This document shows positions 42,274 through 46,202 of a DNA stretch of 64,000 bases, piece after piece. Below the pieces are notes generated by a model, which ran no database searches, was not told where the DNA came from, and saw nothing but the letters and a program-made list of their open reading frames with translations. Positions within the stretch are counted from its first letter, which is position 1, and each line of letters opens with the position of its first letter. The position numbers and the translations under genes are program-made. Origin of the DNA: Runella defluvii (GTDB taxonomy: Bacteria; Bacteroidota; Bacteroidia; Cytophagales; Spirosomataceae); NCBI RefSeq assembly GCF_014195535.1, contig NZ_JACIBY010000003.1, forward strand, positions 186,001 to 250,000, given 5' to 3'.

Positions 42274-43716
42274 TTACAATTCAAAAGTTTGTCCCTTTGT
42301 GGGGATCTCGATATTTTCGTAACCGACTGATTGTAAAGTGTTTTTAAAGTGGTCCATACTTGGCTTTTCCCCGTGGACAAGGAAGATTTTTTTTAACTCG
42401 GCAGGTGCCTGTTGCTGAACAAACGTCAGAAGGTCTTCTTTGTCTCCGTGGCCGCTAAATACGTCAATTTTTTCGATATTGGCCAATACTTGCTCGTCTT
42501 TCCCTCGAATGCGTAGTGTTGTTTGGCCATTCAGAAGCCTCCATCCGAGCGTTCCTTCGGCACAATAACCGATGAGCAATATGGTGCAGTAAGGATTGCT
42601 AATGTTCTGAGCCACATGGTATTCGACGCGTCCACCTTGCACCATTCCAGAGGAAGAAATGATGATACAAGGCTCTACATGGTTTGAAATAGCGCGGCTG
42701 GCGTCTGTACTTTCGAGGTAGATTAAATTTTCAAAGTCAAACAACGATTCATTCTCTTCGTTAAACTCACGGGCCTCGCGGTTTAGCATTCGAACGTTCC
42801 GCTGATAGACCCGCGAGCTTTCAAAAGCAAGCGGACTGTCGGCAAAAACTTTGATGGGAGGAAGCTGATGATTATTATATAATTTATTTAAGGTATATAA
42901 TAAAGCCTGAGTTCGTCCCACACTAAAAGACGGAATAATAAGCCGCCCTGGAATGTCAACACAGGTACGTTTGATAACATCTGCCAAAGCCAAATCGGGC
43001 GAAACGCCTTTTTCATGCAAACGATTGCCGTAGGTTGTTTCACATACTAAGAAATCAACTTGGGGCAAAGTAGCTGGATCAATAAGAAGTGGGTAGCCTT
43101 TACGGCCCACATCACCCGAAAATCCAATGGTTTTTTTCTGCCCGTTTTCCCAAACTTCAACTACGATATGTGCTGCACCCAATAAATGCCCTGCGGGGAT
43201 AAAAGTAATAATGACGTTGTCGGATACCCTAAAACGGCGATTAAAGGCAAGTGGAACAAAGTTTTCGAGTGCTTGACGTACTTGTTTTTCGAGGTATAAA
43301 TCTTTAGGAAGTTCTTTTTTTCTGCCTTTTTTTCGTTTACGTTGCGAATCCGAACTGTTCAATTCATTGATTCGCTTCTGATTCAGCATTGCTGCATCTT
43401 TAAGTAATATACTGGTTAGAGCAAAAGTAGAATCGGTACACAGTACTTGTCCTTCGTATCCATCTCGATACAAGTTTGGGATATTTCCAGAGTGATCAAT
43501 ATGGGCGTGAGTCAATAAAACTACGTTAATTGACGGAGCTTCAAAAGGGAAAAGTGCGTTTGGAAATGGGGGTGGGGTATCGTTGAGCGCGCGTCTTCGG
43601 TCGCCGCTTTCAAAGTCAGAACCACAGTCAATCAAAATACGATAATCGTCTTCCAATTCTAGGAGGTACATGCTACCAGTAACCTGTTGTGAAGCCCCCC
43701 AAAAAGTTAATTTCAT
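42274..43716 (-). CDS. Metallo-beta-lactamase-fold beta-CASP RNase-like protein
   Basis: A 480-residue MBL-fold nuclease of the beta-CASP group (CPSF/YSH1-like). The zinc motif LTHAHIDHSG is near residues 68-77, and GHLLGAAHIVVE and FSGDVGRKG hold further ligands. The beta-CASP cap follows, with GRTQALLYTL and SSSGMVQGGRVEYH. A Lys/Arg-rich insertion, SSDSQRKRKKGRKKELPKD (about residues 123-141), is a likely RNA-contacting loop. Such enzymes process RNA; a lactamase role is not implied. It leads a five-gene minus-strand run. Confidence 0.87.
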   Translation of the reverse strand: MKLTFWGASQQVTGSMYLLELEDDYRILIDCGSDFESGDRRRALNDTPPPFPNALFPFEAPSINVVLLTHAHIDHSGNIPNLYRDGYEGQVLCTDSTFALTSILLKDAAMLNQKRINELNSSDSQRKRKKGRKKELPKDLYLEKQVRQALENFVPLAFNRRFRVSDNVIITFIPAGHLLGAAHIVVEVWENGQKKTIGFSGDVGRKGYPLLIDPATLPQVDFLVCETTYGNRLHEKGVSPDLALADVIKRTCVDIPGRLIIPSFSVGRTQALLYTLNKLYNNHQLPPIKVFADSPLAFESSRVYQRNVRMLNREAREFNEENESLFDFENLIYLESTDASRAISNHVEPCIIISSSGMVQGGRVEYHVAQNISNPYCTILLIGYCAEGTLGWRLLNGQTTLRIRGKDEQVLANIEKIDVFSGHGDKEDLLTFVQQQAPAELKKIFLVHGEKPSMDHFKNTLQSVGYENIEIPTKGQTFEL

Positions 43717-43861: not shown

Positions 43862-44338
43862 TTATTCTGCTAACGGAATAGGACGGGCGATTCGTTCCTC
43901 TAAGGAGATAAATGTTTCGGTTCGTTGAATACCACCTACTTTTTGAATTTTATCGTGAAGAACTTGCCGCAGATGTTCTGTATCACGACAAACGATTTTA
44001 GCAAAAATGCTGTAAATACCCGTAGTGTAATGAATATTAACTACTTCGGGAATGCGTTCGAGCTCAATAGCGACTTCTTCATAGAGCGAACTTTTGTCTA
44101 AGTATATACCTAAAAAAGCGCTAATATCCCAGCCTAATTTAGTTTGATCAACCAATAATTGTGCCCCTTTAACAATTCCAAGCTGCTCAAGTTTTTTCAT
44201 TCGCACATGAACTGTACCTCCTGAAACATGAACCCGTTTGCCAATTTCGGTGTAAGCTAGGTGTGCATCTTCTAAAAGAAGCGCTAAAATTTTTAAGTCA
44301 GTTGCGTCAATTTTATCAATTTCTAAATTTCGTTCCAT
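43862..44338 (-). CDS. Lrp/AsnC-family transcriptional regulator
   Basis: A 158-residue regulator with an N-terminal winged helix-turn-helix (about 13-60: TDLKILALLLEDAHLAYTEI, VSGGTVHVRMKKLEQLGI) and a C-terminal ligand-binding RAM domain (about 75-150: IPEVVNIHYTTGIYSIFAKI). It probably senses an amino acid. Its start faces the tRNA-like locus and the DUF819 membrane-protein gene across a 616-nt region, so it might control the latter; that is inferred from position. Confidence 0.92.
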   Translation of the reverse strand: MERNLEIDKIDATDLKILALLLEDAHLAYTEIGKRVHVSGGTVHVRMKKLEQLGIVKGAQLLVDQTKLGWDISAFLGIYLDKSSLYEEVAIELERIPEVVNIHYTTGIYSIFAKIVCRDTEHLRQVLHDKIQKVGGIQRTETFISLEERIARPIPLAE

Positions 44339-44423: not shown

Positions 44424-44455
44424 TTTGCAACAAAAAATAATATCTATTAGTTTTG
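44424..44455 (+). promoter_or_regulatory. Consensus Bacteroidota promoter for the tRNA-like RNA
   Basis: TTTG at 44424-44427 and TAGTTTTG at 44448-44455, separated by 20 nt, match the vegetative consensus (TTTG, 19-21, TAnnTTTG) exactly. A transcript would begin near 44462, 58 nt before the tRNA-like fold. Confidence 0.6.
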
Positions 44456-44460
44456 CATTG

Positions 44461-44502
44461 TCAATTAAAGAAAAAAGCACTTGGCAACAAGTAAATTAGT
44501 TG
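44461..44502 (+). other. Leader stem-loop with GCAA tetraloop
   Basis: ACTTG-GCAA-CAAGT forms a 5-bp hairpin with a GNRA loop (about 44479-44492), enclosed by GTCAA/TTGAC (about 44460 and 44498). It lies between the promoter and the tRNA-like domain and is probably part of the same RNA. Confidence 0.45.
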
Positions 44503-44519
44503 ACTTTAGTTCTTTATAC

Positions 44520-44680
44520 TGTAGGATGATGAAACTTGGCAGCCATGCCCTCCTGTCTCGGGGGTGGTGAGTTCAGGACAAACACGATATAATGCCGGCA
44601 CTCTAGTCGACTGGGGTAGACCACCAAACTTTGTATCGCGGCTAACTGCACCGTGGGCGGTTCGAATCCCCCTCCTACAG
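44520..44680 (+). ncRNA. tRNA-like RNA with a ~91-nt insertion in the variable region
   Basis: Acceptor stem TGTAGGA (44520-44526) pairs with TCCTACA (44673-44679), extended to 8 bp by C44519-G44680. The D arm ATG/CAT has the class II-like loop AAACTTGGCAGC including GG at 44538-44539. An anticodon-like arm CCCTC-CTGTCTC-GGGGG (44548-44564) has U33 and GUC in the anticodon position but pyrimidine 37. T arm GGCGG-TTCGAAT-CCCCC (44656-44672) has one C-C mismatch. Between anticodon arm and T arm are 91 nt, against about 23 at most in normal class II tRNAs. CCA is not encoded. It is not a normal tRNA, and it is far shorter than tmRNA. It could be a tRNA relic, a tRNA with an unusual intron, or a new tRNA-mimic RNA. 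Confidence 0.55.
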
Positions 44681-44720
44681 CATTCATGTGAATGGTAAAA
44701 CAATTACCCCTCACGACCCT

Positions 44721-44765
44721 AAGGATAGCTTGTTTAAATGATTCATTTCAACAAGTTATCCTTTT
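44721..44765 (+). terminator. Terminator of the tRNA-like RNA
   Basis: AAGGATAGCTTGTT pairs with AACAAGTTATCCTT (one mismatch-type G-T) around a 15-nt loop, followed by a short T-run. It lies 41 nt after the tRNA-like 3' end. Confidence 0.75.
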
Positions 44766-44797: not shown

Positions 44798-44849
44798 ACT
44801 TAAAAGAAAAACTATTTGGTTTTTAGTTTGTTGATGAAGTGTAATTGCG

Positions 44850-44887
44850 ACACGCAGGCTCAGCTTTGAGGCCTGTGTGTTTTTTTT
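44850..44887 (+). terminator. Second terminator, upstream of the DUF819 gene
   Basis: ACACGCAGGC pairs with GCCTGTGTGT around TCAGCTTTGAG, followed by eight T. It closes a short (about 120 nt) interval after the preceding terminator. Confidence 0.8.
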
Positions 44888-44954: not shown

Positions 44955-46202
44955 ATGTTACTTCTCACTGTTTTTACTTCAGACGCCGTCGTTCTTGGCT
45001 TACTTTTTATCATTTTGGCGGGTGTTTTTTATACAGCTTCCTTAAAACACCCACTTTGGATAAAGTTTTACGCAATTTTTCCTCCTTTACTTCTTTGTTA
45101 TTTCATCCCAGGAGTTTTAAATTCTTTTAAAATCATTTCAGGAGAGGAGTCTAAACTCTATTCAGTGGTTTCCCAATATTTTTTACCAGCGTGTCTGGTT
45201 TATTTTACCCTTGGAATGGACTTTAAAGCGGTAGTACGTTTAGGCCCTAAAGCACTTCTTGTGTTTTTGGCAGGCACTCTGGGAGTAATGCTTGGTGGTC
45301 CAATAGCAGTAGCGATTGTTAAAACCTTTGCTCCTGAAGTGGTTGGCGGCTCGGGCTCTGATGCTGTTTGGAGGGGGCTATCTACCATTGCGGGAAGTTG
45401 GATTGGGGGAGGGGCAAATCAAACGGCGTTAAAAGAAGTTTTTCAACCAAGTGATCGTCTTTTTTCGCAAGTGATTGCAGTAGATGTCATTGTGGCGGAA
45501 ATTTGGATGGCCGTACTAATTTACGGCGCGGGAAAAGCAGCTAAAATTGATTATTATTTTAAAGCAGATGCTACTGCCATTGATGAATTAAAAACAAAGC
45601 TTGAACTAGAACAGAAAACATCTAAGCGAATACCAACACTCAATGATTTAATGATGATTGCCGCGGTTGGTTTTGGTGCTACGGCCCTTGCTCATTTTGT
45701 GGCAGATTTGGTTGCTCCATGGCTCAAACTTAATTATCCCTCTCTTGAGAAATTTAGCCTAACTTCATCATTTTTTTGGGTTGTTTCGGTCGTTACATTT
45801 TTGGGTATTTTGCTTTCTTTTACCCGATTGCGCCAACTCGAATTTGCGGGAGCCTCAAAAATTGGTAGTTTGTTCCTCTACGTACTTGTGGCAACCATTG
45901 GTATGAAAATGGATATTTTTGCCGTGGCCGAAAACCCTGGGTTATTTGTAGTAGGGATTCTATGGATGACCATACACGTAATGATTACCTTGTTGGTTGC
46001 CAAATGGTTAAGAGCGCCTTTCTTTTTTACAGCAGTAGGTTCACAAGCCAATGTAGGAGGTGCTGCTTCAGCACCGGTTGTTGCCGCGGCTTTCCATCCT
46101 TCGCTGGCATCGGTAGGTGTATTATTGGCAATATTGGGGTACGCATTGGGAACGTACGGAGGGTATTTGACTGGACTGATGATGCAATGGATAGCAGAAT
46201 AA
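44955..46202 (+). CDS. DUF819-family integral membrane protein
   Basis: A 415-residue polytopic inner-membrane protein with about ten predicted helices, Gly-rich and matching DUF819 (YjcL-like): YFLPACLVYFTLGMDFKAV, STIAGSWIGGGANQTALKEV, SQVIAVDVIVAEIWMAVLI and a C-terminal GSQANVGGAASAPVVAAAFH. The fold resembles secondary transporters, but the substrate is unknown. It stands alone; the nearest regulator is the Lrp/AsnC gene on the opposite strand beyond the tRNA-like locus. Confidence 0.85.
   Translation: MLLLTVFTSDAVVLGLLFIILAGVFYTASLKHPLWIKFYAIFPPLLLCYFIPGVLNSFKIISGEESKLYSVVSQYFLPACLVYFTLGMDFKAVVRLGPKALLVFLAGTLGVMLGGPIAVAIVKTFAPEVVGGSGSDAVWRGLSTIAGSWIGGGANQTALKEVFQPSDRLFSQVIAVDVIVAEIWMAVLIYGAGKAAKIDYYFKADATAIDELKTKLELEQKTSKRIPTLNDLMMIAAVGFGATALAHFVADLVAPWLKLNYPSLEKFSLTSSFFWVVSVVTFLGILLSFTRLRQLEFAGASKIGSLFLYVLVATIGMKMDIFAVAENPGLFVVGILWMTIHVMITLLVAKWLRAPFFFTAVGSQANVGGAASAPVVAAAFHPSLASVGVLLAILGYALGTYGGYLTGLMMQWIAE

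Follow-up and report, generated by a model that had tools for sequence, protein, structure and literature searches.

What kind of RNA does Runella defluvii encode beside its AsnC-type regulator gene, and what use could a cell have for a tRNA-shaped molecule whose anticodon-like loop seems ill-suited to decoding? The question is raised by a short interval of the window, by which we mean the whole 64,000-nt stretch of DNA that was analysed. A first-pass annotation had described positions 44424–44765 as an apparent tRNA mimic with a promoter, a leader hairpin, a terminator and 91 nt inserted between the anticodon-like arm and the T arm. All the parts of the RNA gene lie on the plus strand. The Bacteroidota-type promoter TTTG-N20-TAGTTTTG is present exactly as described (44424–44455, with TTTG at 44424–44427, a 20-nt spacer and TAGTTTTG at 44448–44455), and the word TAnnTTTG lies within 100 nt 5' of the acceptor in 37 of 40 copies of the RNA, against a mean of 3.4 and a maximum of 9 in shuffled sequences. 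The leader (44456–44519) holds its hairpin at the place given, although it is a weak one (z −0.74). The tRNA-like RNA itself runs from acceptor base 1 to an encoded C74 (44520–44681) and is matched from end to end by our model R1 with 143.3 bits.

The acceptor 5' strand TGTAGGA (44520–44526; U1, G2, U3) pairs over 7 bp with TCCTACA (44673–44679). C44519 could form an eighth pair with G44680, but elsewhere in the family base −1 varies between C, T, A and, once, G. T8 and G9 directly follow the 5' strand, and G18 G19 of the D loop lie within GGCAG; both features had been noted before and can be read from the window. The D arm (44529–44546) has the stem ATG/CAT, which covaries, and GGCAG is found in 78 of 79 members. 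The anticodon-like arm (44548–44564) reads CCCTC-CTGTCTC-GGGGG, with G34, U35, C36, U37 and C38, and the loop CTGTCTC indeed has U33 together with a pyrimidine at position 37. The T arm (44655–44672) has the expected loop TTCGAAT (44661–44667), but its stem is not a plain one: a 1-nt bulge interrupts it (GGG-C-GG/CCCCC), and across the family 0, 1 or 2 nt are bulged between the third and fourth pair. G73 and the encoded C74 (44680–44681) close the RNA in 79 of 79 members, and C74 is also encoded by all 34 distinct tRNA genes of the same genome, as delimited by ARAGORN. The long extra stretch is real and measures 90 nt (44565–44654), but it is an oversized variable arm rather than an insertion. 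This giant arm (44566–44652) opens with the 4-bp stem P1 (GGTG 44566–44569/CACC 44649–44652) and the 3-bp stem P1b (CAG 44574–44576/CTG 44646–44648), both of which covary, followed by an internal loop GACAAA/CTAA and an inner domain with GGGGTAGACCACC. The inner domain differs in length between members and is reduced in short ones. Its motif GG(A/G)T(T/A/G)GACCAC, which falls for example at 44612–44627 of the window, was seen in 115 of 197 unique members, chromosomal and viral; among these 197, L305:715-819 (26.6 bits) is a false positive and L178 is truncated at the 5' end.

Is this fold more than a chance pairing of one sequence? The folding energy of the window sequence is not unusual (z −0.25), so a single sequence proves nothing here, and it is the comparison of homologues that decides. 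From a side-by-side reading of these we built a numbered frame: a 7-bp acceptor, T8 G9, a 3-bp D stem, A14 A15, G18 G19, a 7-nt anticodon-like loop on a 5-bp stem, base 44, the variable arm opening with P1 and P1b, U48, a 5-bp T stem, the loop TTCRANT, G73 and C74. The canonical hallmarks of a tRNA are all there (the 7-bp acceptor, the D, anticodon and T arms, T8, A14, G18 G19 and the TTCRANT loop), and the whole is a class II tRNA body with a 7/5 acceptor/T layout and a giant variable arm. In a MAFFT alignment of 24 sequences, 97.8% of 647 cells were paired and 12 of 27 pairs had changed on both sides; none of 500 shuffles equalled the structure in paired cells and double changes, and sliding the structure along the alignment lowered the paired cells to 51–62%. 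The doubly changed pairs fell in five of the six helices, with none in the anticodon-like stem. When 84 distinct sequences were aligned to the model, an alignment biased toward the structure by its construction, double changes appeared in all six helices and in 18 of 27 pairs. P1b was the weakest helix, with 87.5% and 91.2% of its cells paired in the two alignments. The covariation check that the first-pass annotation had named as a possible refutation was thus passed in both alignments, and its tRNA-like fold is confirmed by strong covariation of the arms. The anticodon-like stem occurs as CCTCC/GGTGG, CCGTC/GACGG or CCCGC/GCGGG; we also considered mimicry of an anti-Shine-Dalgarno sequence by CCTCC and rejected it, since some members have CCGTC or CCCGC in its place.

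The variable region spans 39–130 nt across the family, and the shortest full members measure about 110 nt. A compact 78-nt member without any variable arm was observed at locus L335 of genome G047 (68.6 bits, loop CTATCTC), from which it follows that the giant arm is dispensable; no AsnC-type gene was found in the 3.7 kb read around it. All other complete members score 88.9–151.5 bits with R1, while ordinary tRNAs reach at most 50 bits in searches of loci, and tRNA-length matches about 62 bits in searches of genomes. R1 was built from 13 members, and very divergent loops may escape it. A DNA match was found in 42 of the 59 genomes searched, the genome of the window included, and some loci carry tandem arrays of up to five copies (L326, L188). 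For counting we took a genome to have the RNA when its best match to R1 had E < 1e-20, by which the compact copy of G047 is scored as absent; the raw tallies of matches, 287/291 and 387/395, include ordinary tRNA-Leu and tRNA-Ser and are not counts of the family. By this measure the RNA is present in 15 of the 22 sampled families of the window's order, with none at E < 1e-20 in families f3, f7, f8, f11, f13, f16 and f21. Among 395 genomes spread over the phylum 40 carry it: 37 of the 98 from the window's class, made up of the order and families f23, f24 and f27, and 3 of the 297 outside it, all three from one family (f67) of another class.

ARAGORN reported no tRNA in the window, no Rfam family reached its gathering score there, and none of the copies from ten further sources exceeded one. 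A permissive Rfam search of 541 bases returned 15 matches, all so far under their gathering scores that we rejected these families as candidates. The RNA also has no match to RF00023 at the locus, and as the long stretch lies in the variable region and no Rfam intron matches it, the earlier view that it is neither a standard tRNA or tmRNA nor a group I intron holds. Full-text searches of open-licence PMC returned no paper whose title or opening of the abstract describes such an RNA. We conclude that the RNA is real, that it forms a widespread covarying tRNA-like family found also in viral contigs, and that this family, which Rfam 15 does not contain, is new within the reach of our searches. 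Among the readings offered at the outset, a tRNA-derived new class therefore stands, an intron-containing or degenerate tRNA falls, and a regulator is not favoured, since the conserved bases described below are determinants of aminoacylation and amidation and thus speak for a charged carrier.

What, then, would recognize this RNA? We counted its determinants in 79 distinct members, leaving out those retrieved by a core pattern. The first three acceptor pairs, U1-A72, G2-C71 and U3-A70, are each invariant (79/79), while pairs 4–7 vary and covary. G73, C74, U35, C36 and C38 are likewise found in 79 of 79, and G34 in 75; it is replaced by C in G064 and G079, by U in G150 and by A in G055, as well as in the compact copy of G047. 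One copy found by the core pattern, L156:190-315, has A1 instead of U1. Pair 10-25 is A-U in 56, U-A in 12, G-C in 7 and U-U in 4, so that G10 is not kept. According to the sections of PMC9976931 on aspartate identity, the strong elements are G73, G34, U35, C36 and C38, with G10, G1-C72 and G2-C71 as further bacterial elements, and E. coli AspRS uses G1-C72. Measured against the set given in those sections, the RNA has all five strong determinants (G34 in 75/79) and G2-C71, and lacks G10 and G1-C72. Instead it has U1-A72, the pair by which bacterial GatCAB recognizes tRNA-Asn, as stated in the relevant part of PMC4206432. The tRNAs of the same genome point the same way: among the 34, U1 occurs only in tRNA-Asn and tRNA-Gln, tRNA-Asp having G1, and the loop CTGTC-x-C occurs only in tRNA-Asp, where it reads CTGTCAC, one base away from CTGTCTC. 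On the match to these AspRS determinants, on U1-A72 and on the comparison with the genome's own tRNAs, we read the RNA as joining an aspartate-type loop to an asparagine-type acceptor. The bases flanking the anticodon-like triplet tell a different story from those of a tRNA. Position 37 is U in 73 and C in 6 members and never a purine, and U33 is kept in 66 of 79 and lost in 13, whereas all 34 tRNAs of the genome have both U33 and a purine at 37. For this reason the RNA looks like no ordinary decoder; its loop is predicted to keep the bases that a synthetase reads and to drop those that decoding needs.

If aspartate and asparagine are involved, one would look for the RNA in genomes with the amidotransferase. 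In the window's class, where any listed match was taken as gatB (as in the 395 genomes), 37 of 98 genomes have both the RNA and gatB, none has the RNA without gatB, 4 have gatB without the RNA and 57 have neither (Fisher 7.5e-23, with phylogeny ignored, which inflates the co-occurrence). The split is also seen inside families: in f23 (G318, G434) and f24 (G333, G427) the genomes without the RNA are also without gatB. The four with gatB only are G047, which has the compact copy, G357, G465 and G509, the gatB matches of the last two having E near 1e-105. All 40 genomes with the RNA in the 395-genome set have gatB. We further examined 62 genomes chosen by their RNA status, hence not a random set, 32 with and 30 without the RNA. 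Matches over the cut-off were found for gatB in all 32 with the RNA, for AsnRS in 61 of the 62 and for GlnRS in 24 of the 32. Among 38 chosen genomes of the class that have both GlnRS and AsnRS, 24 have the RNA and gatB and 14 have neither; with both synthetases present, tRNA-Gln and tRNA-Asn can be charged without GatCAB. Chosen genomes lacking the RNA have gatB in 14 of 14 cases outside the class and in 2 of 16 inside it, and five of those outside have gatB together with GlnRS and AsnRS, which means that GatCAB can be kept for other reasons. The genome of the window has gatB, AsnRS and GlnRS, and neither AsnA nor AsnB was found in it over the cut-offs; 7 of the 32 genomes with the RNA, this one included, lack both at these cut-offs. 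The AsnB family also holds enzymes with other duties. AsnB was over the cut-off in 25 of the 32 and AsnA in 3, and in these many genomes the RNA would be redundant.

The neighbour on the other side of the promoter is suggestive in the same respect. Immediately upstream and divergent lies the AsnC-type regulator gene (43862–44338, minus strand). The best PDB match of its product is E. coli AsnC (2cg4, E 4.1e-32, compared with 5.8e-10 for Lrp, 2gqq), and with the NCBIfam model for AsnC it scores 157 bits, under the cut-off of 227. AsnC was the top PDB chain for all four regulators compared, from the window and three distant loci, and the top NCBIfam model for eight of eight, at 150–180 bits and again under 227. 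Where a gene of the Lrp/AsnC family is near, its alignment ends 121–280 nt from the first copy of the RNA. Among 201 chromosomal listings, in which places fetched by two routes are counted twice, the AsnC-type gene lies within 700 nt in 113 and farther away behind tandem copies in 4; 71 lack it and a further 13 are too short to judge, so that it is near the RNA in 117 of the 188 with enough sequence. It is missing at the loci of Algoriphagus, Cyclobacterium, Belliella, Aquiflexum, Portibacter and Flammeovirga pacifica, and at those of Saprospiraceae with enough sequence, and the 44 viral listings yielded none (5 of them with too little sequence and one a false RNA match). The part of PMC8707732 that concerns AsnC describes how this regulator in E. 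coli activates the divergent gene asnA, which encodes asparagine synthetase A, and how asparagine damps the activation. By analogy with that description, the RNA sits in the place that asnA has in E. coli. Other neighbours are more varied. In the window, a beta-CASP nuclease gene (42274–43716) adjoins the AsnC-type gene and matches the type VII CRISPR Cas14 model with 345 bits, well short of the cut-off of 800. Two loci that lack the AsnC-type gene, L169 and L331, have a panC-like gene close to the RNA, and L169 also has a panD-like aspartate decarboxylase gene nearby, these being named by eye.

Copies of the RNA are not confined to chromosomes. An exact core pattern found 42 stretches in IMG/VR, with one full copy each. 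Several of these sit within tRNA arrays, with 19 tRNAs in L300, 13 in L295 and 12 in L307, and in nine viral contigs the gap between a tRNA and the RNA match is merely 3–5 nt. So close a spacing suggests excision of the RNA from its transcript in the way of a tRNA. The presence of a gene for the terminase large subunit and one for a portal protein in L277, and of a terminase gene in L293, supports a viral origin of these two, while some of the other IMG/VR contigs may be host or prophage DNA. A blastn search of phage and plasmid records with the window RNA gave no match, and with a viral copy as the query it gave one huge-phage record. This 636-kb record of an uncultured phage holds one copy (120.3 bits), and ARAGORN called nine tRNAs in the 12 kb read there.

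How can these observations be brought together? We propose that this tRNA-shaped, apparently non-decoding RNA is a dedicated carrier for RNA-dependent asparagine synthesis, a proposal to which we give an even chance. In this model its own promoter would drive transcription, and the transcript would then be trimmed as tRNA precursors are and receive CCA at its end. As predicted from the determinants, AspRS would read the G34-U35-C36-C38 loop, G2-C71 and G73 and load aspartate, and GatCAB would read U1-A72 and convert the aspartate to asparagine on the RNA. Judging by the chemistry of the loop, the pyrimidine at 37 and the unkept U33, together with the oversized arm, could hold the asparaginyl-RNA off the ribosome, so that no asparagine would be placed at aspartate codons. 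As a guess, the asparagine might afterwards be set free for use by AsnRS, or passed on. The AsnC-type regulator might tune the level of the RNA as AsnC tunes asnA in E. coli, and for phages the RNA would be cargo of the same kind as their tRNAs. In a fuller picture, the gene would supply the carrier part of an asparagine synthetase based on RNA, regulated by an AsnC-type protein on chromosomes and carried by phages, including the 636-kb one, as an auxiliary metabolic RNA; this picture falls somewhat short of an even chance. The weakest points of the carrier model are the release step and the loss of G34 in a few lineages. Among the latter is G150 with its U34, in which neither AsnA nor AsnB was found over the cut-offs, so that the loss is not excused by another synthetase. 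We also count against the model that G10 is not kept and that U1-A72 stands where, by the account in those sections of PMC9976931, E. coli AspRS uses G1-C72. Moreover, tRNA-Asn itself has U1-A72, and GatCAB could use it if AspRS were non-discriminating.

The last objection touches on a known route. The portion of PMC4206432 on tRNA-dependent amidation describes how a non-discriminating AspRS and GatCAB make asparagine on tRNA-Asn in Bdellovibrio and Staphylococcus aureus. Our model resembles the route described there in its predicted steps, aspartylation by AspRS and amidation by GatCAB via U1-A72, and in the genomes concerned, which have AsnRS, GlnRS and GatCAB and no asparagine synthetase. 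It differs in that the carrier of that route decodes asparagine codons, whereas here it would be a separate RNA with an aspartate loop that apparently does not decode. If the carrier model is true, evolution has turned a tRNA fold into a purely metabolic cofactor, with an amino acid being synthesized on an RNA barred from the ribosome. It would explain why GatCAB is kept in Bacteroidota of the window's class that have both AsnRS and GlnRS, provide a route to asparagine in genomes without a recognizable asparagine synthetase, and add an RNA to the auxiliary metabolic genes of phages.

Could the RNA be charged with aspartate and never amidated? It might be a sensor or decoy that binds AspRS and whose charging reports or buffers the supply of aspartate and asparagine, with the AsnC-type regulator as a partner and without GatCAB. 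The AspRS determinants and the synteny with AsnC would suit such a role, but it leaves the invariant U1-A72 (79/79) without a purpose and the presence of gatB in 37 of 37 genomes unexplained, and we consider it unlikely. A slightly lower probability attaches to the RNA being a donor of its aminoacyl group, aspartyl or asparaginyl, for a non-ribosomal modification of the envelope, a lipid or a peptide. The same determinants and a non-decoding body also fit this, and the step missing from the carrier model would be supplied if a transferase released the amino acid; however, no linked transferase was seen among the neighbours inspected by eye, and phages would seem to gain little from it. We find it improbable that the RNA acts in translation, in recoding or rescue like tmRNA, or as a decoy against anticodon nucleases. 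G34-U35 is mostly kept, and a nuclease decoy would explain the carriage in viral arrays with up to 19 tRNAs, yet the pyrimidine at 37 and the loss of U33 speak against this reading, and the links to AsnC and gatB find no explanation. tmRNA (RF00023) resembles our RNA in having its own gene, a tRNA-like fold and aminoacylation determinants and in being no ordinary decoder, but pair 3-70 is U-A in 79 of 79 members and not the alanine pair G3-U70, and the genome has a canonical tmRNA elsewhere, so we discarded this identity. Lastly, the length and the odd loop of the single sequence had suggested an intron-containing or decayed tRNA, a reading that we regard as ruled out, with hardly any probability left to it, by the covariation in the variable arm, the conserved core of the anticodon-like loop, the spread over classes and viral contigs and the lack of an Rfam intron match.

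The carrier that we propose can also be set beside other unusual tRNA-like molecules. The tRNAs of the same genome that score best with R1 are the class II tRNA-Leu (TAA, GAG and TAG, 49.3–49.8 bits), whose D arm is similar; the RNA is set apart from them by its aspartate-type loop, G73, a variable region of 39–130 nt and scores of 88.9–151.5 bits (68.6 for the compact copy). Among the allo-tRNA/selC*-type tRNAs a 9/3 form is known. These tRNAs are likewise unusual and have a long variable arm, but in the passages of PMC7609411 that describe them they have altered acceptor/T lengths such as 8/4, whereas the RNA has 7/5, a giant variable arm and a loop predicted not to decode. Structures in the yeast AspRS mRNA and the E. 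coli thrS mRNA, as outlined in part of PMC9976931, mimic the anticodon determinant of a synthetase; they act in cis within mRNAs, in contrast to the free-standing gene with an acceptor end described here.

Where does the transcript end? The first-pass annotation had taken the hairpin at 44722–44764 (AGGATAGCTTGTT/AACAAGTTATCCT) for the terminator. This was not borne out: its arm was found only in 12 same-genus loci among the first 43, and a strong terminator (z −3.57) lies farther downstream, together with a conserved module ATTTGGTTTTTAGTTTGTTGATGAAGTG (44814–44887, plus strand). The hairpin sometimes lies to either side of the RNA and is perhaps a small repeat, not a terminator. The module and terminator are probably the 3' end of the transcript at this locus, provided that it is transcribed as its promoter suggests. 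With up to 2 mismatches, TTGGTTTTTAGTTTGTTGATGAAGT occurs in exactly one copy in 36 of 58 genomes, and where the module is found, it lies 13–170 nt 3' of the RNA, with a terminator-like hairpin after it. Three genomes in which the DNA search gave no match to the RNA (G026, G031, G033) have it behind a gene named by eye as aspS-like (L090, L091, L092). In the order outside the window's family the module was found only in G040 and G052, and it is in none of 43 viral loci, for which reason we do not count it in the function of the RNA. A search by eye for pairing between the module and the RNA gave no consistent partner, and this idea was dropped. Within the module, ATGAAGTGTAA may be where a mini-ORF (MKCN...) begins.

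Some minor observations may be added. Directly before the acceptor, a BoxA-like word, similar to the consensus of rRNA antitermination, was seen, clear as TGCTCTTTAACA in L024 and less so at 44506–44516 of the window. A DUF819 protein is encoded at 44955–46202, and a similar gene lies 3' of the RNA in many, though not all, loci, as judged by eye. Elsewhere in the genome, at G000:C1:982782-982881 (L089), a 100-nt match to RF00005 with 48.9 bits is left uncalled by ARAGORN, and at G000:C9:260439-261220 (L088) three 92-nt copies resembling tRNA-Val(TAC), each longer by about 16 nt in the region of the T arm, adjoin two normal copies.
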